In this document: positions 2,870-51,785 of the stretch, piece by piece
How positions within the stretch are numbered: position 1 is the first letter of the stretch
How the letters are laid out: every line of letters begins with the position of its first letter
Source of the DNA: a virus
IMG/VR virus record: IMGVR_UViG_3300023116_000031
Coordinates: 1-64,000 of that record
Direction: 5' to 3' (one strand)
Length of the DNA: 64,000 nt
Program-made: the position numbers and the translations under genes
The notes under the pieces: model-generated
Database searches by the model: none
Told to the model about the DNA's origin: nothing
Seen by the model: only the letters and a program-made list of their open reading frames with translations

Positions 2870-4471
2870 TTGACTGAGGAAATCCAAGACACTATCACGG
2901 TGAACGCTGAAGAACTCAGAGAGTTGCATCAAGAACACGCGCAAAGTGTTGCCATGAATCAGAGACTTGAGTATCTGCTTCAGCAAGCAAAAGTCAAGCT
3001 GGCGGAGATGAAGGATGAACTTGAGCGATTGAGTAATCCTCCGAATGTGTATGCTTCATTCCTTCACATGAACGATGATGGGTCGGCTGAAGTAATCGCA
3101 AATGGTAGACGAATGAGGTGTACCATTTCAAATCACATACCGATCGACGAGTTGCATCGTGGGCGTTATTTGATTATGAACGAGCAAATGGTTGCTATTG
3201 CCATTGGCCCCTACGCTGATGCGGGTGAAATCTGTAAGGTGCTTGAGGTACTTGACGATCGACGACTTGTTATTGAAGGGCGTCTCGACGAGAGGAAGAT
3301 CATTTACTTGAGGGATGGGCTCAAGGTAGAGGAGCGTCCACTCAAGCCGGGTGATGAAGTTCTCGTTGATCCCACAAGCGCAGTTGCTATGGAATATGTG
3401 TATAAGGTTGACGAGAAAGACACTCTACTCGAAAGCGTTCCTGATGTGACATATGATAAGATTGGTGGAATTGACGATGCGATTGAAATCGTTCATCATA
3501 GCGTCGAACTACCATACAAGCATCCTGATGTGTTCAAGGAGTTTGAGCTTAATGCACCCAAAGGCATCCTTTTGTATGGTCCGCCTGGATGCGGAAAGAC
3601 GTTGATCGCAAAGGCTATCGCAAACAGTCTGGCGAAGAAGGGTGGTGTATCACAGTTCATCAACATCAGCGGGCCTCAACTTCTCACCAAGTGGGTGGGT
3701 GAGTCGGAGCGACGTATCAGAGAGGTGTTCAACAAAGCGCGAGAGGCTGCGACACCTGAAAGCCCTGTTGTGATCTTCTTTGATGAGGCAGAGAGCTTGT
3801 TTCGTATGCGCGGATCAGGCAAGTCATCTGACATGGAAAGCACGATCGTTCCTACACTATTGGCTCAGTTGGATGGTGTTGAAGGGCTTGAGAACGTGTT
3901 AGTCATCTTCGCATCCAACAGACAAGATTTGATTGATCCTGCTGTTCTTCGACCTGGGCGCATTGATGTCAAGATCAGATTGTCACGACCTGATCGAGAT
4001 GCTTCAAAGAAAATCCTTAGTGTGTATTTACATTCTGGGCTGCCTATTGAGGGTGATCTGGATTCTATTCTGGATAAAACTATCGACTATCTATTTGAAG
4101 AAGCACCTAATAAAGAGTTCCTTGAGCTGGTGTATAATAAGGGGACGAGAGAAACTTTATACTTCAAGGATTTCTTATCAGGAGCGATGTTGGAAAACAT
4201 TGTTGCTCGGGCTAAGAAACTCGCAGTTCTTCGTCGAATAGAAGGTGAAACAACAGGTATCACTACAGAAGACATGATTACTGCTGTGGATCAAGAGTTC
4301 CATGCAACACGAGATTTGCCAAATACGAGTGATGTGTCTGATTGGCAAGCAATCACTGGGCGTAACAACGGTGAAGAGATTGTTAAGATCCGATCGCTTA
4401 TTCAAAAGAAGGAAGCAGAGGAAAAGAAACCGAAAAAGGTTGAAGATGCTGCCACCGGGCAATATCTATAA
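2870..4471 (+). CDS. mpa-like: Proteasomal AAA+ ATPase, Mpa/ARC family, with C-terminal GQYL
   Basis: A 533-residue homologue of the actinobacterial proteasome-associated unfoldase Mpa (ARC). A coiled coil at about 14-55 (in Mpa it binds the pupylated tail) is followed by a beta-rich OB-like interdomain at about 57-180. The AAA module has Walker A GPPGCGKT (237-244), Walker B FFDEAES (303-309), and the ARC-specific YFKDF-SGAM and DLPNTSD-DW blocks. The last residues are ATGQYL; in Mpa the terminal GQYL docks into the 20S proteasome. Start TTG at 2870 follows AAGGAG with suitable spacing; no ATG fits. It is the last gene of the operon, before a terminator. The family does not include FtsH, Cdc48 or phage ClpX types: the C-terminal block is diagnostic. 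No 20S, Pup or PafA gene is visible here, so a host proteasome partner is inferred. Confidence 0.93.
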   Translation: MTEEIQDTITVNAEELRELHQEHAQSVAMNQRLEYLLQQAKVKLAEMKDELERLSNPPNVYASFLHMNDDGSAEVIANGRRMRCTISNHIPIDELHRGRYLIMNEQMVAIAIGPYADAGEICKVLEVLDDRRLVIEGRLDERKIIYLRDGLKVEERPLKPGDEVLVDPTSAVAMEYVYKVDEKDTLLESVPDVTYDKIGGIDDAIEIVHHSVELPYKHPDVFKEFELNAPKGILLYGPPGCGKTLIAKAIANSLAKKGGVSQFINISGPQLLTKWVGESERRIREVFNKAREAATPESPVVIFFDEAESLFRMRGSGKSSDMESTIVPTLLAQLDGVEGLENVLVIFASNRQDLIDPAVLRPGRIDVKIRLSRPDRDASKKILSVYLHSGLPIEGDLDSILDKTIDYLFEEAPNKEFLELVYNKGTRETLYFKDFLSGAMLENIVARAKKLAVLRRIEGETTGITTEDMITAVDQEFHATRDLPNTSDVSDWQAITGRNNGEEIVKIRSLIQKKEAEEKKPKKVEDAATGQYL

Positions 4472-4523: not shown

Positions 4524-7043
4524 TTACATCGGTCTTCGTATTACCCTTCTTTTACTTCGGGCCCGAGCAATAGCTCTGCGTCTTAAAACATCAGCATGTT
4601 GCTGGGAGGCTGCGGCTTTGCGTTTTTGTCTGTTTGCATCGTATCTATGTTTTGTGGAAGATACAGAGGCTTGATAATTTTTACTTGAGACGTTTCTTAC
4701 TAATTGATTTCCGGTCATCCCTTCACTTCGCATTCCACGAACTTTGTTACCATAATCACGAGCCTTAGTTCGTGCTAGTCGCTGCTTGGCAACCATGACA
4801 CGCTGCTTTGCTTGAGCGACACGCTCCTTGGCTGCATCAACATTCTCATCCACGGCAGGGTTGATCTTCACATCAGCCTTCCCCTTCTTACGTTCAGCCT
4901 TGTGAGCAGCACGCTTCGCGTCCTTGAGGGATTTCGTGCCAAGATACTTCTTCTCGAACTTCTGAACATTCAGCTCACGCGATGGCTTCGTGCGACCGAT
5001 CATTCCAGCTTCCGCTACCTCGACCTCTTCGTTTGGGAACAATCTCTTGTAGTTGCGACTGTTCTTGATCTTCGCTGATCGCTCTTTGCTAATCTGACGA
5101 AACAGTTTAGCAGCACCGCTTTTGTCACTCTTGCTGAAATAAAGACCAGCCTTGTCAGCACCAGCAGACTTGAGAGCATAGTTATCAGGATCATCAATCG
5201 GACCCGTTCCCTTCAGAGATGGTCTACGATCTGCCATTCTCTGAGCGCGCCCCACCTTTGACTTACGCATCTTATCGGGATGAAGAAGCATTGTGTCCAA
5301 TCCTACTCCACGTTGATCCAACTTGTCGCGAAGACCACCGGGCTTTCCACCCTTTCGGATCTTATGAAGAAGACCACCATACTTGGCTTCATCAACCTGC
5401 TCGACCTCTTCGCGAACAGGCTTGCCATCCTTGGAGATGATACCCTTCATTCCCTTCTTTTCAACTGCGGCTAGGAATCCCTTCGCTGCGTTTAGTGTGC
5501 CAAACTTTGACACCTGAATGGGTCCGCGCTTTGACTTGGCGTACTTGACTTCAAACTCATCGTCAGACCGAGAACTCTTTTCCCGCGACACCTTATCAAG
5601 AGCGCGATTAGTCATTGATTGCGCTCGGTTCTCATCAACCTGCTCGACCTCTTCACCCATTCGACGACGCTTCATGCTCTTGACGAGATCACCTGCTGTT
5701 GGTCCACCCTTGTCTCCACGGACACTGCGACCAAGCTCTCGGATACGCAGTCGTGCCTTCATGGGAACCTTGGACATCGGCATGTCACCATACTTGTCCA
5801 TCAGCTTGTTGTATTCAGACTTGGATTCATTGACCGGATAGAGCTTCTGAAGCTGTGCCACTGCCTTCTCTGCTCCAGAGAAGTTAGCGGTGTTGCGTAA
5901 TGAATAACGTAGCTTCTCGGGTGAATCAAACACATTCTTCAAACCACTCTTGGCTTTCCAGTAGTATTGAATCCTTCCTCCGCGCTTCACCATTCCAATC
6001 TCAACGGCATCTCCACCACTAACTTTAATAGTCGCAGATGTGGAATCTCCCTTGGCTTCCTGCATACTACGGTGAGTGCTTGAGTAAGTATTCAACTCAT
6101 ATGGATGTGAACCACCTTTGTTGTATACTTGAATGTGTATCTGGTGCTTCTTACCGGATTTATGAGTAGCAGGAACACTTACTGAAGTAGTCTTACCTTC
6201 GCCAGGCTTTTTGGAGTTTAGACCAATGTGGTGCATTTTGTCATCATCAGATGAACGTAGTCCACTCTTTGCGTGGTGAGCAAATGCGTGCTTTACGGCA
6301 TCAGTGTATGACTTGTGATATAGTTTATAGTCTGAGCCACGAGCCTCTTCGATTTCTTCTTCCTCTCCCTTTGCCTTCATCATAAAGTGCTTGCGCTTCT
6401 TTGATGGGGTGACACGCTCTATGTCACCGATCATGTCGGGCTTCTTAACTAACTTGCGGAGTTTCATTTTTACTTCAGCTTCTCCTGATCCATCAACAAT
6501 GATGGTTCCGATTCCTTCGACGCTTACTTTGTAACTTGACTCATCAACCTGTTCGACATCAGGATCATAAGAAGCATTGATCTCCTGATTTCTGAACGCA
6601 CGCTTTGAATAGAAAGCATTTTGACTAACAGGTCGTCTTCGATTTTGTGTCAGCCCGGGATTGTTACGAAGATGCTGCTCACGATCGCGCTTCTTCTTCG
6701 CGAGATACTGTTGGTATCGTTCAACCTTCTTCTCGTGTGCTGTCTTTCCAACATAAGGCTTGTCGGGATTCTTCGGACCAGACGGAGGAGTTGCCTCGTT
6801 GATTCTCTTTTTCAATACGACCTTCTTTGTTCTCACCTTAGCGTCCTCCTGTCCGGGGGTATCGTTTTTGTATTTATCTGTTAGTTTGTTTGTGCCCCAC
6901 TCACCAGCACCATGTTCTTCTTTGAACTGCTTATTTGCTGTTGCGTATAGCACACGCTCCCAATCAGCACCATATCGCTTCTTGAAAGCTGCCTTGTTCT
7001 TCATAATGAATCGTTCTGCCTTTTCCGATCTTGCTTCATTCAT
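4524..7043 (-). CDS. Basic polyprotein-like internal head protein with VEQVDE repeats
   Basis: About 839 residues, very rich in Lys and Arg, built from short basic domains separated by acidic linkers. VEQVDE occurs at about 163, 466 and 547, and related EEIEEARG, SMQEAKGD and EEVEVAEAG occur between them. The N-terminus (FKKRYGADWERVLYATA) is a recurrent element of T4-like marine phages. T4 prohead protease cuts after short E-containing motifs, so these linkers look like processing sites that release packaged DNA-binding peptides; this is inference. I chose the ATG at 7043 because it follows one base after the stop of the upstream gene; an in-frame start at 7091 would overlap that gene. Confidence 0.8.
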   Translation of the reverse strand: MNEARSEKAERFIMKNKAAFKKRYGADWERVLYATANKQFKEEHGAGEWGTNKLTDKYKNDTPGQEDAKVRTKKVVLKKRINEATPPSGPKNPDKPYVGKTAHEKKVERYQQYLAKKKRDREQHLRNNPGLTQNRRRPVSQNAFYSKRAFRNQEINASYDPDVEQVDESSYKVSVEGIGTIIVDGSGEAEVKMKLRKLVKKPDMIGDIERVTPSKKRKHFMMKAKGEEEEIEEARGSDYKLYHKSYTDAVKHAFAHHAKSGLRSSDDDKMHHIGLNSKKPGEGKTTSVSVPATHKSGKKHQIHIQVYNKGGSHPYELNTYSSTHRSMQEAKGDSTSATIKVSGGDAVEIGMVKRGGRIQYYWKAKSGLKNVFDSPEKLRYSLRNTANFSGAEKAVAQLQKLYPVNESKSEYNKLMDKYGDMPMSKVPMKARLRIRELGRSVRGDKGGPTAGDLVKSMKRRRMGEEVEQVDENRAQSMTNRALDKVSREKSSRSDDEFEVKYAKSKRGPIQVSKFGTLNAAKGFLAAVEKKGMKGIISKDGKPVREEVEQVDEAKYGGLLHKIRKGGKPGGLRDKLDQRGVGLDTMLLHPDKMRKSKVGRAQRMADRRPSLKGTGPIDDPDNYALKSAGADKAGLYFSKSDKSGAAKLFRQISKERSAKIKNSRNYKRLFPNEEVEVAEAGMIGRTKPSRELNVQKFEKKYLGTKSLKDAKRAAHKAERKKGKADVKINPAVDENVDAAKERVAQAKQRVMVAKQRLARTKARDYGNKVRGMRSEGMTGNQLVRNVSSKNYQASVSSTKHRYDANRQKRKAAASQQHADVLRRRAIARARSKRRVIRRPM

Positions 7044-7044
7044 G

Positions 7045-10000
7045 CTATGATCCGTTCGCTCCGATATATGTGCCGTCGCGCCCAAGCACATACCATGTAG
7101 GTTGCAATGATGTTGGATTTATCAACATCATACAAATGAAACTGGAGAGTCCAGCCTGACCTGAAATTGTAGGTGAAACCGTCCCTCCACCCGGCGTTTC
7201 AAATAGTGTTCCGTTAAAGAATATCGGAGCATGGCTGGCTCCGGTCTGAATAGTAAAGTCCGTAGCATATAAACCATGAATACAAAGATTAGCACCGTCA
7301 CTTAAAGTTGAAGAATCAGGAAGCACAAACGGGCCGGAGCCGCGAGTATCAATAAAATACCACTGCCCGTTCGCAAATGGAATGGGAATGTCTTCACTCC
7401 CGTCGCCGTAGTCCAAATAACGAACATCAACATTACCCCTGATTGTTCCCGAACCAAGATCCAGATTTGCTCCGTTGCTTCCTGCTCGCAATGTGACAGG
7501 GCCAGCAGTTCCACCGTTGAACTCAATATAATGTGTTGATGTGCTTCCGTCCGTACTAACACCATCATAGATTTTAATCTCTGGAAATGTGGAAACATCT
7601 CGCCCAACACCAATAGTCAACTGACAGTAATCTGGATCACTCACTCCCGTGCAGAGTGTAGAGAAACTAGCATCTAGTGTTGTAGATCCAGATCCAGGGT
7701 CACCAGCATAATCAGTGGCACCATCGAACGTATCAATGTCATAGTTAAGTGATCCAGCAGCAGTTAACTTACTTGTTACGTCGATATTGTTGAATAGAGC
7801 ATTTCCATTGACATCAACGCTCCAGTTTGAACTAGCAGTGTCTTCATCTTTAATCGCTTCAACGAAAAGTTGACCACTTTGATCCAATCGTAAGAGGTCT
7901 AACGATCCTCCATCGCGTTGAACATGAACAACGGGAGCCATATCTACACCGACCGGAGGCGCTTCAACGAGCAATGATGCTATGGTTCTATCATCTCCCT
8001 TTATCTTTACTTTACCATCCGTTGATGTTCCTGCACCAACGATAAGTCTATTTGTGGCGGCTGTAGCAAGAGACGCATTTCCTCCGCTATGTGTGATGGT
8101 TTGTGTGCTTGTTAGTGATGGTGTATTTACCGACGTTCCTGTGATGGCCCCAGCACTTGTGATACCCCAGTTGGTGCCTGGTCCGTCAAGGTCTTGAATA
8201 GCTTGAGTTCGAACTTCACCATCAGCCCAGGCTTTGAACACAGAAGCACCTGCAAATGTAATCAAATCGAGCAGAGGATTACCAGCAACTCCAGGTTGTC
8301 CATCGGCACCACGGACGATAAGTTGTGTGACTGTGGATTGTCCTCCAATCTCAACCTTTCCGGTACGACCTGCGATGTCATCCCCTACGGAAAGTGTCCC
8401 ATCAAAAGCAGCAGAACCATTATCGCTGATCGACCACTCCACTGGTGAATCAATATCTGTGAGGGATTTTAATGAGCCGACACCACCACTACTGATACTC
8501 CAGTTAGTGCTAGGAACATCGATGTCACCGATGGACTGAGCGTATACCGCACCATCAGCATCCACATTGAACAGCTCTGTTCCTGCGTTGTCCTCAACAA
8601 CAAAGACGGAATCTGTCTGTGTGCTATGTCCCTGAACGACGAGCTGTGGTTGATCTTGTGTGCCACCAATCTCTGCCTTACCAGCAAGCGCCGTGCCATC
8701 ACCAATAGTGAACAGCTCCGTTGCTCCAGATGTCAGCGTTGCGTTTCCACCGTTCTGCGTCAGCGCACCAGTATTTGTCAGCGCACCAGTATTTGTAATG
8801 TCTTTGAACTTACCTTCTCCGCCGGCTGTTATTTCCCAATTACCACCACTTGCATAAGCGTTACTGCGATCTCTCAGAGCTTCTGCGTAAATAAGACCAG
8901 TATCGAACATTTGAATTGGATTGCCGGTGGAGGCCGGGTCTGTGCGATCTTCTGATATTACAAATACTGGATTGGCATCAGTACCTTCGCGTGATGCCAC
9001 AACCAAGCCAACTTCATTGGCCACTCCTGAATATATCTCTACCGTTGGTGTAAAGAATCTATCTGTAAAATCTGCTCCTCCGACGACAGCAGAGTCAATA
9101 TCGGATACTCCTAAAACAGTTAACGATGATACCGTGGTTCCTTGAAAGATTGCTGTTCCGCCCGGAGCGATGCTCCAGTTATCACCTGGTCCGTCCGTAT
9201 CTGAAAGAGATTGAAACTGAGCTGCGCCGCTGGGAGGAATGACCCAGTTTGATGTACCTACACCTTTGGTTGGGTCTGGAAACCCAGTAAGATTGTTTGT
9301 GACTCGCACGCTACCATTATGAAATACATCAAACACTGTGTTGGTGGTATCAACCGTCGCGCCACCACCACCACTTACGGGATTAAATCCATATATTCTG
9401 AAGGCAGGCTGTCCAGCAGCACCGCTGCCGCCACTGTCAAGCGATGGGATCAGGTCCAACAGAGAAGTAGCACTTGTTGTTGTTCCTGTTATGTTCACTG
9501 CTGCTGAGATGTTATTCACATCAGGTGCGAGATCGCTGAGAACATTGTCTTCACACTTCTTGAACTTCCCTTCGCTGTCATTATAGAAAATGCCGCCATT
9601 CGCGTTGTCGAATGTGTTACAGTTCGTTAGTTCTCCTGCGACAAACTCTGCTCCCAAGTTAGAAACGACAAGCTCTGTTGTCAGTGAACCGAGACTTGTA
9701 ATACCTGTGCCGATCACATCAAATGTTACAACACCAGAAGTGTCCGTGACATTGACTGTGGATGTATCTTGAAGATCAGCGGATTGGATGATTGTTCCGC
9801 TTGAGTCCACTTGAATAGAGGATGATCCTACAGTTCGCGCTCCACACTGCCACAACGAACTGGTCTCATTCCACGCGATAGTGTCTCCGTTAGAACAACC
9901 TTGAAGTATTGCTAATTCGCCTGACTGTGTGAACTCAAGCCCAGATAGATTGGAGTTTGATCCGACCCCGTCTACTGCTCCATTAAGATCAACAGCAAAG

Positions 10001-10962
10001 GTTGCTGTGTCTGGGTCGGCCGTCGTATTGAGGCTGATAGTAACACCATCTCCGCCTCTCAGATCCAGTCGGTTGTTTCCATCTCCTGTTGCAACACCTT
10101 CAACATAAATTTCATCAGCGTTGACATTGCCTGCTTCCATATTCGTCGCGACCCCGGCTTCGCACTTCTTCATGTTCGTGCCGTCATACCAAATGCCAGC
10201 CACTATTTCGCCCGCCCCTGTGTTAGTGCCGCAGGTGAAGCCTGGGACCCCTGCCGAAATCGCAATACCAGCCCCGCTCAGTGTAAGCAATCCGCTCGAT
10301 GTTATGGATGTTAGTGTTCCCACTTCAACAATGCTATTTGAGTCGAAAAATGCTGTGACAGCACTACCACTGGAATCGAAGCCGATGTTGATATTAGGTG
10401 ATGTAAGCACACCAGTCTGGAAAATCGGATCTGCGACTTCCGCCGCGGCCCCGCCGTCCGAGCCGGCGGCACCCGGGTCAACGCTAACCGTCGATCCACC
10501 AGCCGCTACAGGTTGACACTCCCACCCATTCGTTGTGTCCCATTGGAGGACATCATTATCGAAGCAGGTTCGCAGTAGAGACAGATTAGTAGCATCGAAC
10601 TCCAGACCAGGGCCTGTGCTATGGAGTGTGATGTTGAGCGTAACGGTGTCCGGGTTTGGAACCGTATCAAGATCAAGCTCAATACCATTACCATCCAAGA
10701 AGTTCACGGTGGAATCGGGTGTGACAGTACCATTAATTTGAACAGCATCACCACCACCAGAAGTTAGCGAATTAACATCAGTTTTTATGGAATTAAGAAC
10801 AGTATCAATCTGATTCATGTGTGTGGATGTGATGCGGTCACCTCGATTAAATCCGTTCGGTCTCCCATCAAACCCATCCCAAATAACAGTTGCAAAAGCC
10901 AGTCCGGGGAGTAGACTAAATACTGTCAGAAGCGCAAGTGCCAGAGGCATCGTTCGTCTCAT
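7045..10962 (-). CDS. Giant signal-peptide-bearing fibre / adhesin protein
   Basis: A 1305-residue protein starting with a typical Sec signal peptide (MRRTM, hydrophobic core to LPGLAFA). Next comes a Gly/Ser/Thr/Asn-rich beta-repeat region with recurring units such as DLDGPGTNWGITSAG, DIDVPSTNWSISSGG and DIDSPVEWSISDNG, then a C-terminal globular region from about 1190. The repeats look like trimeric fibre shafts. The ITSTHMNQI segment after the signal peptide recalls the start of the other giant fibre at 53.9 kb (ISSSEVNTN). It has GGAG upstream and a minus-strand late promoter at 10996, so it is a late gene. A signal peptide on a fibre-type phage protein is odd: it may be exported to the host surface. 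Low Cys; no depolymerase motif recognised. Confidence 0.8.
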   Translation of the reverse strand: MRRTMPLALALLTVFSLLPGLAFATVIWDGFDGRPNGFNRGDRITSTHMNQIDTVLNSIKTDVNSLTSGGGDAVQINGTVTPDSTVNFLDGNGIELDLDTVPNPDTVTLNITLHSTGPGLEFDATNLSLLRTCFDNDVLQWDTTNGWECQPVAAGGSTVSVDPGAAGSDGGAAAEVADPIFQTGVLTSPNINIGFDSSGSAVTAFFDSNSIVEVGTLTSITSSGLLTLSGAGIAISAGVPGFTCGTNTGAGEIVAGIWYDGTNMKKCEAGVATNMEAGNVNADEIYVEGVATGDGNNRLDLRGGDGVTISLNTTADPDTATFAVDLNGAVDGVGSNSNLSGLEFTQSGELAILQGCSNGDTIAWNETSSLWQCGARTVGSSSIQVDSSGTIIQSADLQDTSTVNVTDTSGVVTFDVIGTGITSLGSLTTELVVSNLGAEFVAGELTNCNTFDNANGGIFYNDSEGKFKKCEDNVLSDLAPDVNNISAAVNITGTTTSATSLLDLIPSLDSGGSGAAGQPAFRIYGFNPVSGGGGATVDTTNTVFDVFHNGSVRVTNNLTGFPDPTKGVGTSNWVIPPSGAAQFQSLSDTDGPGDNWSIAPGGTAIFQGTTVSSLTVLGVSDIDSAVVGGADFTDRFFTPTVEIYSGVANEVGLVVASREGTDANPVFVISEDRTDPASTGNPIQMFDTGLIYAEALRDRSNAYASGGNWEITAGGEGKFKDITNTGALTNTGALTQNGGNATLTSGATELFTIGDGTALAGKAEIGGTQDQPQLVVQGHSTQTDSVFVVEDNAGTELFNVDADGAVYAQSIGDIDVPSTNWSISSGGVGSLKSLTDIDSPVEWSISDNGSAAFDGTLSVGDDIAGRTGKVEIGGQSTVTQLIVRGADGQPGVAGNPLLDLITFAGASVFKAWADGEVRTQAIQDLDGPGTNWGITSAGAITGTSVNTPSLTSTQTITHSGGNASLATAATNRLIVGAGTSTDGKVKIKGDDRTIASLLVEAPPVGVDMAPVVHVQRDGGSLDLLRLDQSGQLFVEAIKDEDTASSNWSVDVNGNALFNNIDVTSKLTAAGSLNYDIDTFDGATDYAGDPGSGSTTLDASFSTLCTGVSDPDYCQLTIGVGRDVSTFPEIKIYDGVSTDGSTSTHYIEFNGGTAGPVTLRAGSNGANLDLGSGTIRGNVDVRYLDYGDGSEDIPIPFANGQWYFIDTRGSGPFVLPDSSTLSDGANLCIHGLYATDFTIQTGASHAPIFFNGTLFETPGGGTVSPTISGQAGLSSFICMMLINPTSLQPTWYVLGRDGTYIGANGS

Positions 10963-45785: not shown

Positions 45786-47372
45786 ATGCGTAAGCTATTT
45801 TACATACTGGTCTGTATTGTTGCTGTTCTTCAACTCGGATCATTTATTAGCCTCAACCTTGGTGGCGGGACTAGTGCTGTGCCTAGAGAACAGGGTTTGC
45901 AAACTAATATAGAAGAACTTACTCGATTCCATGATCTCTGGGTTAATGAAGGCGGAACTGGACCTGTTACTACTGATCGTGGGTTACTGGCCACAGATGC
46001 GGGTGCCGCGAAAGATAGCTGGGCATATTCTATTGATGCTGGAGATTGGGAATGGGATTACATTCCAGAGCCAACATGCATTCCCGTTGGCGCGCTCGGG
46101 TTGGGCCCGGAATACGATCTTGATGGTGCTGCTTCAGACATTCTAGCCATGGCACTATACGGTGCTTTACTGGATATTAATTCACCCGGAACAGGAGATG
46201 CCTATTTTTCTGCTGTTAAGACACGCATATTAGAATTTACTAACATAACGGGATTTGGGGGAATTTTCGAAGTCCCTGAAGTAATGCTTCAAAATGGGTG
46301 TATTTTTGCAATTTCGTCTGCTATTCCGCAGATACTTGAAGCAGCATGGCTGATTGAGGAGGCTGGATATACTGAAACTAATGAATGGGAATCTTCCGAT
46401 CGACAGACTCTTGCTTTTTGGGCAGTAAATGTTGTGTTTCCACTTGCAAGTTTTGATGCTAGACAACGTAAAGAATATCAGGGAATTACTGGATTGGGTG
46501 CGACAATGGCTATCGCAGCATATTCTGTTGGTATACAAAATACAGGTATAGTTGAAACATGGGATGGCTATAGGACTACGCCGAATAACTGGCTGTTGCA
46601 ACCATCAACTGATCATTTACTAGAGTGGTTGGACAATTCTACAGGCCAGGCGAAAGGGATTCGAAATAGTGCGTGTTTTCAACAAAATCGTACTTTTGGG
46701 CTTCAGTCAAATGGTAGGTTCCCCGATGAAACTAGACAGGTGGAACAGAATACTTTTGGTATGCCTCCTTATGGTGGATTTATTGACGATAGTGGGAGAA
46801 CTCCTTTCCCATCCAACAACGTCGCTTCATGTGATTATGGGAGTCTTGGTGCGGTCGCGGGCGATCCGCTCGAAGATCCAAATGGAACCTGTAGCACACT
46901 TTCCGGGCAAATTACATCTGGATGCCTAAGTCATGTCCAATTTCAACAGTTGGCAACAAATTCTTTTGCTCGCACCTGTGAGATATTTCGACGGTTAGAC
47001 AAAGGCGGCGGCCGCTGTTTCGATTTAGACGTGCATAACCCAGGAGGCGGAACAACAGCACTAAATTCTGCTATTTTGTTTTCAACGACAGAACTTTTGG
47101 CAGCCGGAGATGTCCGGTACCGAACTTTTGGGCCATATCAAGATTTCTGGACACACGATGAACTTCAAGGATACATTCATGTTGCATCAACTTATTATGA
47201 CAACTATTGTTCATATATTGCTCTAACAGACGGAGATGTTCCTCTTCAGGGTGGGGATATGTATCCGTATACAAGAATCACACACAGAGACGGTGTAGCT
47301 CATGTCGGCCCTCTTTCTGCGGGATCGACTTGGGATTGCGCTACATGGGATAACACGTTATGGTCAAATTAG
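45786..47372 (+). CDS. Exported protein, possible polysaccharide-lyase-like fold
   Basis: 528 residues with a signal peptide (MRKLFYILVCIVAVLQLGSF). Alternating helices (AAWLIEEAGYTETNEWES; LAFWAVNVVFPLASFDARQRKEYQGI) suggest an alpha/alpha-toroid as in alginate-lyase-type enzymes. The second half is Cys- and Gly-rich with Asn-Asn repeats. The function is not established. It is A+T-richer than the genes before it. Exported enzymes acting on host or biofilm polysaccharide would fit; no catalytic residues were identified. Confidence 0.6.
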   Translation: MRKLFYILVCIVAVLQLGSFISLNLGGGTSAVPREQGLQTNIEELTRFHDLWVNEGGTGPVTTDRGLLATDAGAAKDSWAYSIDAGDWEWDYIPEPTCIPVGALGLGPEYDLDGAASDILAMALYGALLDINSPGTGDAYFSAVKTRILEFTNITGFGGIFEVPEVMLQNGCIFAISSAIPQILEAAWLIEEAGYTETNEWESSDRQTLAFWAVNVVFPLASFDARQRKEYQGITGLGATMAIAAYSVGIQNTGIVETWDGYRTTPNNWLLQPSTDHLLEWLDNSTGQAKGIRNSACFQQNRTFGLQSNGRFPDETRQVEQNTFGMPPYGGFIDDSGRTPFPSNNVASCDYGSLGAVAGDPLEDPNGTCSTLSGQITSGCLSHVQFQQLATNSFARTCEIFRRLDKGGGRCFDLDVHNPGGGTTALNSAILFSTTELLAAGDVRYRTFGPYQDFWTHDELQGYIHVASTYYDNYCSYIALTDGDVPLQGGDMYPYTRITHRDGVAHVGPLSAGSTWDCATWDNTLWSN

Positions 47373-48409
47373 ACGAAGTATATAAGAACTCAGGGCTTGG
47401 TAAATGGTTCCACAAGCAATCTGCTGGTGGAGAGCCTGGATGGGATCGATACAACAGCAAAGGCGAGAAAGCTGGAAAGTGCGGTGACAGCAAGCCAGGT
47501 GAGCCTTATGCTGCGTGTCTATCCAAGCAGAAAGCAGCCAAGCTAGGAAAGAAGGGTGTCAAGTCCTTTGTTTTACGCAAGCGAGCAAAGCAGCGCGAGC
47601 TAGGCAAAGGAAAGAAAGATATTAGTGGTAAAGGAAACAAGCCTATCAATGTAAAGACAGGCGTGACGGACAAAGATCCTAACAAGAGAGGAATACAAGA
47701 AATGAGTAAGTCATTCGACGATTTTCGCACGGAACTACAAGAGAAGAATGTTCCTACAAACCCTAAGTTGTGGTCTTCTGTTCTCGCAACGACCCGTTCA
47801 AAGTTTGATGTGTATCCTTCAGCATATGCTAACGCATGGGCAGCAAAGGAATATAAGAAGAAGGGTGGAGGCTGGCGCAAGTCCAAGGGTAAGGTGGACG
47901 AGGCGATTATGGTCGCTCTTGACGAGAAGTCTGCGGCAGATAAGCTCAAGGCGCACATGAAGGCTGGCGAGAAGTATCGAAGGAAAGATGGAGATCGCAG
48001 AAAGGGTCCAATTTTCCGACCAATGAGTGATAAAGAGAAGGATGAGCGTATTGCTCATACCAAGCGAGAAATCCAGCTTCGGAAGCAGGTTGAGCGAGAG
48101 CGAGCAAAGCGACGTAACGAAGAGGTCGAGCAGGTTGACGAGAAGTCTGCTGCGTGGCAACGCAAGGAAGGCAAGAATCAGGAAGGTGGTCTGAACGCAA
48201 AGGGTCGTGCTTCATACGAACGCGAGAATCCCGGCAGCGATCTGAAAGCTCCCGTTTCCGCAGCGCAAGCAAAGAAGAGCAAGGGTGGAAAGGCTGCGAA
48301 GCGTCGCAAGTCATTCTGCGCTCGAATGGGTGGAATGCCCGGACCAATGAAGGATGAGAAAGGTCGCCCAACACGCAAGGCACTTGCTTTGAGAAAGTGG
48401 GATTGTTAA
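47360..48409 (+). CDS. Composite basic packaged protein (DUF5872-type segments)
   Basis: 349 residues starting inside the end of the upstream gene. Segment 1: GEKAGKCGDSKPGEPYAACL, a KQKAAKLGKKG run. Segment 2: an internal ATG at 47702, with AGAGAGGAAT before it, begins MSKSFDDFRTELQE, a CTS-like start, followed by NPKLWSSVLATTRSKFDVYPSAYANAWAAKEYKK, the DUF5872-like part (here shown in two pieces only). EEVEQVDEKSA separates a last basic segment with SFCARMGGMPGPMKDEKG. Looks like a modular internal protein cut at Glu motifs. Confidence 0.7.
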   Translation: MVKLDEVYKNSGLGKWFHKQSAGGEPGWDRYNSKGEKAGKCGDSKPGEPYAACLSKQKAAKLGKKGVKSFVLRKRAKQRELGKGKKDISGKGNKPINVKTGVTDKDPNKRGIQEMSKSFDDFRTELQEKNVPTNPKLWSSVLATTRSKFDVYPSAYANAWAAKEYKKKGGGWRKSKGKVDEAIMVALDEKSAADKLKAHMKAGEKYRRKDGDRRKGPIFRPMSDKEKDERIAHTKREIQLRKQVERERAKRRNEEVEQVDEKSAAWQRKEGKNQEGGLNAKGRASYERENPGSDLKAPVSAAQAKKSKGGKAAKRRKSFCARMGGMPGPMKDEKGRPTRKALALRKWDC

Positions 48410-49663
48410 GTGGAATCATTCCGCCAATATATTGTTGAAGAGAAGGGGCAAAAGAACCTTCATATGACTCATTTGGAAGAGCTTATTCTTCTGAATGGGG
48501 TGACTGGCGGTCGTGATTCGATCAACTTTCTGCGTTCGGTTCGAGACATGCTAGCCGGGCAGAGCAAGAAATCAGTCAACATAACAGTCAAATGGGATGG
48601 CGCACCTGCGATTTTTGCTGGCATTGATCCAGAAGACGGAAAGTTTTTTGTTGGAACCAAAGGAGTGTTCAACAAGACACCCAAGTATGTCAAATCGAAA
48701 GCTGATCTGTCACAATATGGTTCTGGATTACAGGACAAATTGAGTATCGCATTTGATGAACTCAAAAAGATGAATATACCAAAGGGAATTGTTCTTCAAG
48801 GTGACATGCTGTATGGGCCTGGTGATTTAGAAGAGAAAGACTTTGATGGTGTGAGTCATGTGACATTTACTCCGAATACGATCACATATGCTATTCCAAG
48901 CAATTCTGCTCTGGCCAAGCGAGTGAAGAAAAGTAAAATAGGAGTCATCTTTCATACCACATATACGGGTGACACGCTACAGGACATGACAGCCTCATTT
49001 GGTGCTGATGTGTCTAAGCTACGAAGAACGGGTAGTGTGTTTTTTGATAACGCAGACTATCGTGACGTATCAGGAACAGCTACACTGACAGCGAAGGAAA
49101 CAACTGAAGTCACTCGTTATCTGTCTCGTGCGGGAACAGTATTTCAAAAGATTCCCGGGCCAGCTCTACGAAAGTTTCTGACGTTTCAGCAATCGTTGTC
49201 TGGATCGGTTTCTGGAGCTTCTTTTGCCACATATACCAATAGTCTGATTCGTCAGGGCAAGACGATTACAGATCCGCGTAAGCATACCAGAGAATATAGA
49301 GAGTATTTCAAGAACTACTGGGAGACGAAGGTGATTGCGAAGGTGAAGAGCCCCGCGAAGATCGAAGAGAAGCGTCGGCTCCTGAAGGAGCATTTGCGGG
49401 CTATTGCGGAGATCGAAGTTACCCTACGAAGTGTCATTGAGTTTCAAATTAACATCATGGCAGCAAAGAATATGTTGGTAAGAAAACTCAACACTGCTGG
49501 AGGAATGGCGAGAACCTTTGTGAAGGTGAATGACGGCTATCGTGCGACTACACCAGAAGGATTTGTTGCGATTGACAGAATGAGCGGAAACGCAGTTAAA
49601 CTTGTGGATAGACTGGAGTTCTCTCATCTCAACTTCACAGTAGCCAAGAATTGGGACAAGTAG
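48410..49663 (+). CDS. DUF6267-like protein with ligase-type KxDG motif, CTS-like N-terminus
   Basis: 417 residues from GTG at 48410. MESFRQYIVEEKG resembles a capsid targeting sequence. TVKWDGAPAIFAG near residues 62-74 has the lysine-x-Asp-Gly signature of covalent nucleotidyltransferases (DNA/RNA ligases, capping enzymes). FFVGTKGVFNK and VLQGDMLYG may be motifs III-IV. The C-terminal 200 residues are helical and basic. Proteins of this family are conserved in T4-like marine phages; activity unproven. May be packaged to seal ends or modify RNA in the new host. Confidence 0.7.
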   Translation: MESFRQYIVEEKGQKNLHMTHLEELILLNGVTGGRDSINFLRSVRDMLAGQSKKSVNITVKWDGAPAIFAGIDPEDGKFFVGTKGVFNKTPKYVKSKADLSQYGSGLQDKLSIAFDELKKMNIPKGIVLQGDMLYGPGDLEEKDFDGVSHVTFTPNTITYAIPSNSALAKRVKKSKIGVIFHTTYTGDTLQDMTASFGADVSKLRRTGSVFFDNADYRDVSGTATLTAKETTEVTRYLSRAGTVFQKIPGPALRKFLTFQQSLSGSVSGASFATYTNSLIRQGKTITDPRKHTREYREYFKNYWETKVIAKVKSPAKIEEKRRLLKEHLRAIAEIEVTLRSVIEFQINIMAAKNMLVRKLNTAGGMARTFVKVNDGYRATTPEGFVAIDRMSGNAVKLVDRLEFSHLNFTVAKNWDK

Positions 49664-49692: not shown

Positions 49693-50067
49693 ATGGCAAA
49701 AGACCTGTCTGAAATGCGCGAGGAGCTACAAGAAGCCCTAACGACTGCTCAACGAATGAAGCGGCGAATGGTGTTCCGTCGGTCAAAAGCCAGAATCAAG
49801 ATAGCACGAGAACGCGCCCAGAAGAAACTCGCACCAAAAGAAAAGCTAGAAAAGCGAGCAATGAAGCAGGCTAGAAAGAAGATCGAGATGAAAATTCTTG
49901 GAGGTAAGAAAAAAGACGATCTTCCGTTTGCAGCACGAACCGCGATTGAAAAGAAAGTGGATCAGCGATCTGCTGCTATTAAGCGCCTAGCAAAACGAAT
50001 GTTTCCTGGCGTCCGAAAAGCTGAACTTGAGAGACTTCAAGCATATCGGAGAGGTGGACCAAAATGA
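49693..50067 (+). CDS. Highly basic internal protein
   Basis: 124 residues, about a third Lys/Arg. SEMREELQEALTTAQRM is a CTS-like start region; the rest is helical and basic (RRSKARIKIARERAQKKL), suited to DNA condensation in the head. Adjacent to a late promoter and overlapping the adenylyltransferase gene. Confidence 0.7.
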   Translation: MAKDLSEMREELQEALTTAQRMKRRMVFRRSKARIKIARERAQKKLAPKEKLEKRAMKQARKKIEMKILGGKKKDDLPFAARTAIEKKVDQRSAAIKRLAKRMFPGVRKAELERLQAYRRGGPK

Positions 50068-50921
50068 GTACCGCAGTAGTCACATTCGGTCGATTTAATC
50101 CTCCTCACATTGGGCACAAGCTCGTGGTGGATACGGTCAAGAAGATCGCAAAGAAAGAGAAAGGAACGCCTTTGGTGTTTCTTTCCCACACTCAGAATCA
50201 GAAGAAAGATCCTCTGACATATGATCAGAAAATCAAGTTTGGAAAGTCTTTTTTCGGTAACGTAATACAAAAGACGAATGCGAAGAACATCGTTCAGATT
50301 GCTCAGGAACTCGATGACAGCTATGATAATCTCGTGATGGTTGTGGGCGCAGATCGTGTCAAAGAATTTGATAATATGCTTCAGAGATACAACGGAAAGG
50401 ACTTTGACTTCGACAGTGTAAAAGTCATTTCCGCAGGAGAGCGAGATCCAGACGCAGATGATGTAACCGGAATGAGTGCGTCAAAAATGCGAAAGCTCGC
50501 TGCTGATGACAACTTTGCCGAGTTCAAGAAGGGTGTTCCGAAGGCAACTATGGCTCGTGCGCTGTTTGATGCAACTCGACAGGGAATGAGAGTTAATGAG
50601 AGATTTGAAAAGGATGGTGTATTTGATCTAATTGAAGCTCTTGAGGAGCGAGAAGATTGGGACGATCTTACCGAAGATATTATAAATAACAGACGATTCA
50701 ACTCACTTTTGAGATTTGGTCTTGTTGCAGATCGAGATATTCCGATTACAAAAAGAGCTTTCTCTGACTTGAAACGAGCAAATGTTGACTGGACACTGAG
50801 GGACATGGTGTTTCAGGTAACACAAACTATGGCCGATTACATTTTAGAGGATGATCTACTCTACAACAGATTACTGTTACTCGTTCAGCGAGATCAGTTC
50901 TTCAATAATAAAAAAGACTAG
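50064..50921 (+). CDS. NMN adenylyltransferase-like nucleotidyltransferase
   Basis: 285 residues. TFGRFNPPHIGHKLVVD holds the intact HxGH of the nucleotidyltransferase superfamily. VVGADRVKEF and MSASKMRKLAADDNFAEF match the G-x-D strand and the ISxTxR-type motif (here MSASKMR). Homologues in cyanophages are annotated as NMN adenylyltransferases. C-terminal ~100 residues are a helical extension with no recognised domain. Could repair NAD pools or cap an RNA; inference. Confidence 0.8.
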   Translation: MSTAVVTFGRFNPPHIGHKLVVDTVKKIAKKEKGTPLVFLSHTQNQKKDPLTYDQKIKFGKSFFGNVIQKTNAKNIVQIAQELDDSYDNLVMVVGADRVKEFDNMLQRYNGKDFDFDSVKVISAGERDPDADDVTGMSASKMRKLAADDNFAEFKKGVPKATMARALFDATRQGMRVNERFEKDGVFDLIEALEEREDWDDLTEDIINNRRFNSLLRFGLVADRDIPITKRAFSDLKRANVDWTLRDMVFQVTQTMADYILEDDLLYNRLLLLVQRDQFFNNKKD

Positions 50922-50930
50922 GAGATAACT

Positions 50931-51785
50931 ATGTTTGGGAAGAAACCTGTTTCAAATTCGCTGATTGACGCAGTGAAGAGTGTCGTATCGGCAACGCAAG
51001 AAGACGCTGCTGGTGTTCAGATCGAGGCTGGAGAAGCTGTATATGTTATTGAGGGTGCCTATGAAGGAAATTCTGGAAAGATTTTAGAGTTTCCTACGGC
51101 TGGTAAAGCACTCGTTCAGCTCGATCATGGTCGCGCAGTTCCAATTACCAATGATAGCTTTGTTTGTGAACATACGATTGAATTATTTGAGGCAAAGAAG
51201 CTCGATCCAGTTGGTCAGGAAGACGATGACGTTGACAACGACGGTGATTCTGATGAGTCGGATGAGTATCTAATGAAGCGCCGAAAGGCAATCAAGAAGG
51301 CCATGAAGGAAGGAAACTGCGGTTGCTGTGACGGTGAGTGCCAGTGTTCTGCTGATTGCTCTGATTGTGACTGTAACGAAGAAATCGAGCAGGTTGACGA
51401 GCTAAAGGTTTCCACAAAGATTCGAGCAGCAGCACAACGCGCGGCTGATGCCTCCGGCGATCGTATTGATGCTCGGTGGGCTACCACCGATTCGGGCGCG
51501 AGAGATGCGGAAAAGTCAGCCGTAAAGAACCAACGCTCGGCTGATAAGATGCGAAGTCAGATTGCAAAGAAGCACGGAGAGCGAGCAGCTAAGGGTGTCG
51601 ATAACCTCGCCAATATCCGATCTGGTAAGAAGATGTCACATTCGCGTGTGAGAAACTCTCAGAAGTCTGACAGTCTTGCGAATCGACCAAGCACAAGCAT
51701 CGCCAAGAGTGGAGAGCGCAAGGGTAAGATTACGCGAGCAAGCGCAGAACGGCTCAAGTCCGCTATTCGTAATCGACGAAAGTAA
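50931..51785 (+). CDS. Composite structural protein with Cys-cluster and EIEQVDE motif
   Basis: 284 residues: an N-terminal KOW/SH3-like domain (AVYVIEGAYEGNSGKILEF), an acidic linker with DVDNDGDSDESDEYLM, a Cys-rich patch of nine Cys in about 18 residues (GNCGCCDGECQCSAD...CDC), then EEIEQVDELK, then a basic Ser/Arg-rich tail. The EIEQVDE is the same motif that separates segments at 4.5-7 kb and 48.1 kb. Likely virion or packaged; the Cys patch may bind metal. Confidence 0.65.
   Translation: MFGKKPVSNSLIDAVKSVVSATQEDAAGVQIEAGEAVYVIEGAYEGNSGKILEFPTAGKALVQLDHGRAVPITNDSFVCEHTIELFEAKKLDPVGQEDDDVDNDGDSDESDEYLMKRRKAIKKAMKEGNCGCCDGECQCSADCSDCDCNEEIEQVDELKVSTKIRAAAQRAADASGDRIDARWATTDSGARDAEKSAVKNQRSADKMRSQIAKKHGERAAKGVDNLANIRSGKKMSHSRVRNSQKSDSLANRPSTSIAKSGERKGKITRASAERLKSAIRNRRK

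Follow-up and report, generated by a model that had tools for sequence, protein, structure and literature searches.

What divides the long open reading frame (ORF) on the complementary strand at positions 4524-7043 of this viral DNA, in which strings of the EVEQVDE type recur between segments, and do similar strings at two further loci have the same role? The window, i.e. the whole stretch of 64,000 nucleotides analyzed here, covers the opening 64 kb of an IMG/VR virus record of 73,822 bases, and its replication genes form a T4-like set (gp43-type polymerase, gp45 clamp, gp44 clamp loader, UvsX, gp41-type helicase and primase). The reading that we favor, with a probability of roughly 0.7, is that EVEQVDE, together with its variants, is where a gp21-type prohead protease (Peptidase S77) cuts, and that the ORFs carrying these strings encode modular polyproteins that would be cut in trans and yield packaged pieces.

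EQVDE copies in the window

A six-frame scan of the window resulted in exactly five [D/E][V/I]EQVDE strings, all located within long ORFs and distributed over three of them: three copies at 4524-7091 (complementary strand), one at 47360-48409 and one at 50931-51785 (both direct strand). The same scan with the reversed pattern returned zero matches, and the occurrence of EVEQVDE-like strings at three loci, as given in the preliminary description, was thus confirmed. The DNA of the five copies was nearly identical, synonymous positions included. In a scan of viral contigs, at least 120 IMG/VR stretches matched EEVEQVDE. The five-copy scan, the empty reversed control and these matches rule out a chance repeat, and the matches also rule out a motif restricted to this phage. 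A sequencing artefact is not suspected, since orthologues occur in independent contigs.

The modular ORF at 4524-7043

The modular, polyprotein-like ORF (complementary strand) encodes 855 aa if translation starts at 7091; the ATG at 7043 is the likelier start, in agreement with the limits initially assigned to it, and its nearest relative (L338) starts near the corresponding place. Within this ORF, the three EQVDE sites (a slash marks the predicted cut) are DVEQVDE/S (6540-6560, P1 at residue 184), EVEQVDE/N (5631-5651, residue 487) and EVEQVDE/A (5388-5408, residue 568). The preliminary description took such strings as the cut sites and overlooked five further predicted sites of the same class on the same strand, namely INE/A (6795-6803, residue 99; IDE/A in L338), IEE/A (6345-6353, residue 249), which opens a module found after VDE, MDE or LEE sites in other phages, MQE/A (6057-6065, residue 345), VNE/S (5826-5834, residue 422; VNE/A in L338) and VAE/A (5010-5018, residue 694).

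The comparison with L338 revealed two exact site-to-site module deletions. In the relative, the 65 aa between VEQVDE/ and IEE/ are absent and the flanks are joined site to site, the junction reading VEQVEE/A; likewise, the 126 aa between EQVDE/ and VAE/ are absent and IEQVDE/ is joined directly to AGMIGR. If all such sites are read as cuts, eight cuts give nine pieces with predicted masses of 7.3-18.3 kDa and predicted pI values of 7.9-11.6, which bears out the earlier description of the segments as basic. Judging from these sites, the product is probably processed to roughly nine pieces, each of 7-18 kDa. An AlphaFold model of the 855-aa ORF based on a two-sequence alignment was too poor (pLDDT 46.9) and was not used.

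ORFs at 47-53 kb

The ORF at 47360-48409 (direct strand; pI 10.1) belongs to the DUF6321 family (PF19846; 88.7 bits against a cut-off of 28.5, E-value 4.1e-25) and is a homologue of T4-GC_119, which carries the label "structural protein" in cyanophage S-E7. Its single site, EVEQVDE/KSAAWQRKEGK (48122-48142), lies directly before the DUF6321 module. Earlier annotation of this family was only structural or hypothetical, and the literature found describes no cleavable junction before the domain. The following ORF (48410-49663, direct strand; DUF6267, PF19782) starts with MESFRQYIVE/ (48410-48439), an N-terminus resembling a capsid-targeting sequence (CTS). Further downstream, a cytidylyltransferase-like ORF (50064-50921, direct strand) is followed by the ORF at 50931-51785 (direct strand), which contains a DVDNDGD module and one site, EIEQVDE/LKVSTK (51381-51401), and which, like modular proteins in phages Cr30 and P-TIM68, occupies the gene slot after the cytidylyltransferase. 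In its orthologue L342 (88% identical) the site is exchanged for AFENLDE/LKVSTK, that is, EQVDE is replaced by ENLDE and the class of the site is kept. The motif ORFs of the window lie away from the prohead core cassette, those of this region in a cluster around the cytidylyltransferase and before the primase.

Residue constraint at module junctions

In order to avoid circularity, junctions were fetched by module and not by motif. Among the 62 distinct junctions of the PKFAGKS module, P1 was E in 62/62 and P3 was L (41), I (18), V (2) or M (1), corresponding to L/I in 59/62 and L/I/V in 61/62, with P2 free. EVEQVDE-like strings were found in only 2/62, a minority in this motif-independent set that rules out the full string as the recognition element. 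For the SKKTLGSY module, with loci chosen without the motif and three regex false positives discarded, P3 was L/I/V in 24/24 copies having E at P1. The signal was weaker for the DVDNDGD module, with the site present in 18/30 junctions vs. 16.5% at random positions. At the expected maturation site of gp23 of these phages, LxE/[A/T/S] was present in 13/13 sequences, always with L at P3.

The gp21 protease of T4 cleaves after the E of L/I-x-E (PMC9026906). V at P3, found in about 80% of EVEQVDE copies, in each of the five EQVDE strings in the window and in some neighboring sites, falls outside this known consensus; the EQVDE sites of the window therefore fit the T4 rule only if V is allowed. The residues EEVEQ preceding P3 were conserved within lineage. 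As far as the junction sequences can tell, EVEQVDE is a lineage dialect, and the predicted constrained determinant is [L/I/V]xE/, with P3 and P1 as in T4. The preliminary proposal of a gp21-type site by which long ORFs are split into modules gained strong comparative support, whereas the full EVEQVDE string did not hold as the determinant. That [LIV]xE is simply the opening turn of the domain behind it was ruled out for DUF6321, for which stand-alone copies without the site exist; in the PKFAGKS family, [LI]xE could be partly a feature of the domain itself.

Module borders and exchange

Among 126 non-redundant motif proteins, 38 carried two to five copies, with flanks that differed from copy to copy. 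After masking the motif, alignment of the motif proteins yielded 1053 alignments between 867 protein pairs (median block 58 aa). Homology blocks started just after the motif in 326 cases, vs. 97 at random (maximum of 200 trials, 177), and ended just before it in 364 cases, vs. 100 at random (maximum 168), i.e. block boundaries fell at the motif about 3.5-fold more often than in the random trials. This accumulation of starts and ends indicates that the motif marks module borders. Copies within a contig differed at 117 synonymous positions vs. 219 predicted from codon usage (76 pairs, not independent), suggesting, and only suggesting, that the site may also serve as an exchange seam. Between phages the DNA of the site diverges and the peptide rule [LIV]xE stays.

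Interchange of capsid-targeting-like N-termini and internal linkers

The DUF6321 module was found after internal linkers, such as EEVEQVDE/KSAAW in the window, EETQLDE/KSAAW and EETELDE/VAAW, and also after CTS-like N-termini, such as MLKFKQFLDE/SAAW, MISFKKFLEE/SAAW, MKTFSEYLNE/DW and MLSFKQFITE/AAV. The capsid-targeting N-terminus of T4 IPIII, which the latter resemble, is MKTYQEFIAE/. Stand-alone DUF6321 proteins begin at the module, without the E; these come from contigs without detected gp21 and from podovirus MEP401, from which gp21 is also absent. A similar arrangement was observed in gp064 of Caulobacter phage Cr30, whose N-terminus (MRSKILAE/ISKKTL) is followed by a repeated linker dialect of its own (ESENLNE/, ESEEMINE/, GEELDE/) before the SKKTLGSY module and others. 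The predicted sites of gp064 are numerous, among them MINE/A, NLEE/I, HLEE/S, NLNE/R, ELDE/I and ALDE/V, and Cr30 also has gp21. Such interchangeability of CTS ends and internal linkers before the same modules would be expected of elements that serve as one and the same protease site. No clear N-terminal CTS was found in any of the three window ORFs with EQVDE; EVEQ itself could be the targeting part.

The prohead protease gene in relatives

The gp21 gene was not found on the 73.8-kb fragment to which the window belongs. In other genomes, gp21 (PF03420, Peptidase S77) was present in 7/14 motif records, in 9/10 PKFAGKS contigs with a length of 100 kb or more, and in 9/9 T4-like isolates examined. 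Among site-bearing DUF6321 contigs it was present in 1/15, a count that says little because these were mostly fragments. Of the 24 contigs in which both the PKFAGKS module and gp21 were found, 22 have the module on the gp21 strand, 0.6-2.7 kb upstream of that gene. Where a whole cassette was read, the module had the portal gene on one side and gp21 on the other. The genes of the cleaved core proteins of T4 (gp67/gp68) are near the slot that the PKFAGKS module occupies in these relatives. In contig G006 (87079-90138, complementary strand; L142-L143), the portal ORF (gp20) appears to contain an intein-like insertion (CLALDTRIPLLDGRTLPLEEIIAEYEAG...).

Published virion proteomes

Counterparts of the 47-53 kb cluster occur in finished virions according to published proteomes: the cytidylyltransferase gp154 and its neighbors gp155, gp156 and gp160 were detected in S-CREM2 (PMC10665884), the cytidylyltransferase and _139 in S-SZBM1 (PMC9146016), and the cytidylyltransferase in S-SM1 (PMC3037559). 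A strict CTS was present in 5/16 virion-detected non-tail proteins of S-CREM2 vs. 1/167 undetected ones (p=1.5e-5), with a regex that was written after inspecting the S-CREM2 proteins. An independent enrichment test in S-SZBM1 was under-powered and not significant (p=0.14); among its three CTS carriers are the virion-detected cytidylyltransferase and the protein with DUF6321.

Three other virion-detected proteins of S-CREM2 (gp12, gp14 and gp6; L171), a Cas9-annotated endonuclease, an APH-like kinase and a SAM hydrolase, have CTS-like N-termini (LRFASFMAE/A, MKRFDAFLTE/ and MKDFDSFLEE/) and may therefore be injected. In addition, the virion protein gp160 (S-CREM2; L170: gp160, gp145) contains EEMMAAGATGFTGAAAPEGPVAGYDP, which resembles the mature N-arm of the major capsid protein gp23 (LLTE/APTQAVGADGFTGAAAPGGPNAGFDP), a likeness that may explain the label "major head protein" given to GC_426 (metaG-MbCM1, L166).

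Proposed mechanism and alternative explanations

Cleavage at these sites would account for the constraint at P3 and P1, the exchange of CTS and linker, the modular borders, the head-cassette position together with gp21 in relatives, and the site-to-site loss of modules, all of them features read from sequence comparison. The products of the precursor ORFs would be drawn into the prohead core, like the T4 internal proteins and gp67/gp68, and a gp21-type protease would cut them in trans after the E of [L/I/V]-x-E during head maturation. Small, mostly basic pieces would result, some of which would probably stay with the DNA and then be ejected, while others may leave the head. The upstream EVEQ, as a lineage dialect, may aid targeting or docking. 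We infer cleavage itself, the packaging of the window's own products and their ejection; the earlier idea of a polyprotein that gives packaged peptides is kept on these terms, with the addition that an N-terminal CTS is interchangeable with the internal linker.

Other explanations were weighed against the same observations. It seems somewhat unlikely that the sites are cut and the pieces are a disposable scaffold, comparable to T4 gp67/gp68, whose fragments mostly leave the head, rather than delivered effectors. The adjacency of the modules to gp21 in relatives and the cutting of T4 core proteins into multiple fragments (PMC9026906) would agree with such a role; however, finished S-CREM2 virions hold the CTS-like cytidylyltransferase, kinase and SAM hydrolase as well as neighboring proteins, and the pieces are numerous, diverse and basic. 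Uncleaved strings, acting as flexible acidic linkers or scaffold-docking motifs between DNA-binding modules, are distinctly unlikely. They would explain why the lineage-conserved EEVEQ exceeds the need of a three-residue protease rule, and the targeting residues of the T4 CTS are indeed separate from the processing residues. With D at position 10, the CTS of T4 IPIII is no longer processed but still targets (PMC9026906). On the other side, E at P1 and an aliphatic P3 are kept while all else varies, the site swaps with the CTS end, and its replacement in the 88% identical orthologue (EQVDE to ENLDE) keeps the class.

A site that is primarily a DNA-level recombination seam for module swapping, with the peptide as a by-product, has very little probability in our view: the codon sharing within contigs, the near-identical DNA of the window copies and deletions that run from site to site are what such a seam would produce, yet between phages the DNA diverges and [LIV]xE is kept, dialects differ by phage (ESENLNE/ESEEMINE in Cr30), and the end of an N-terminal CTS can take the place of the site. 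Protease cleavage and a seam are combined in a broader reading, which we regard as tentative and less likely than not, in which aquatic T4-like phages have a plug-and-play system of injected proteins: a genome-specific, homogenized dialect would be both the cut site of the prohead protease and a recombination seam, so that modules could be added, lost or moved from gene to gene without forfeiting their packaging, their release in the head or their delivery along with the DNA.

With respect to known systems, the proposed gp21-type cleavage is closest to that of the T4 gp21 substrates (gp22, gp67, gp68, and IPI-III/Alt with their CTS), with which it shares the L/I-x-E/ rule (for the EQVDE sites of the window, only with V allowed at P3), an S77 protease in the genomes of relatives, genes beside gp21 in relatives, predicted small basic pieces, and an IPIII-type CTS in relatives. 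In size, the predicted window pieces (7.3-18.3 kDa) also come close to the internal proteins of T4, which range from about 8 to 20 kDa. The T4 internal proteins, in contrast, are encoded by one gene each and cut at the N-terminus, whereas the ORFs considered here chain many modules by internal sites that recur, often have V at P3, and exchange modules from phage to phage. A comparable mosaic multidomain organization is found in the polyvalent proteins of phages and conjugative elements, for which separate release and entry with the DNA were proposed by authors who likened them to polyproteins (Iyer et al. 2017, PMC5512222). They differ in having an embedded peptidase and known effector domains, while cutting in trans by the head protease is proposed here; neither an embedded MPTase nor known polyvalent effector domains were found in the motif ORFs with Pfam and PHROGs. 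The propeptides and ejection proteins of SPN3US and phiKZ (gp245-type proteases) are likewise cut after E at a short motif, which is A-X-E in SPN3US, with several cuts per propeptide (PMC10052503; PMC5694885), but those cuts remove N-terminal propeptides, and an array of modules joined by a repeated dialect linker is not described there. In the literature searched, which mostly did not cover subscription journals, no paper mentioned VEQVDE or DUF6321, and none dealt with a gp21-cut polyprotein or with such arrays.

Cleavage by the head protease would provide one testable mechanism for a large set of unexplained proteins of aquatic T4-like phages, i.e. hundreds of unknowns, including DUF6321 and T4-GC_119-type proteins, the SKKTLGSY and PKFAGKS modules, and the proteins around the cytidylyltransferase gene. 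If true, few genes would place many small proteins in one capsid, each of them releasable by the head protease. Read after a CTS or a linker, [L/I/V]xE/ would be a rule by which to find candidate injected proteins, and the modular sites suggest how such cargo evolves fast.

Neighboring genes

A 528-aa ORF with a signal-peptide-like start (45786-47372, direct strand) is flanked by replication genes and the DUF6321 ORF, and had no PHROG match. Directly upstream of the modular ORF, and on the same strand, a 1305-aa ORF (7045-10962, complementary strand) also has a signal-peptide-like start; a family match was sought and none was found, and the product looks like a fiber or adhesin.

The ORF at 2870-4471 (direct strand) encodes a proteasomal ATPase of the Mpa/ARC kind, with 588 bits against TIGR03689 (pup_AAA; cut-off 505), OB domains, and a proteasome-associated ATPase as best PDB match (1e-134). 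Its C-terminus ends in GQYL, the tail that docks Mpa onto the 20S proteasome. The presence of this ATPase suggests that the host has a Pup-proteasome system, which the phage may hijack.
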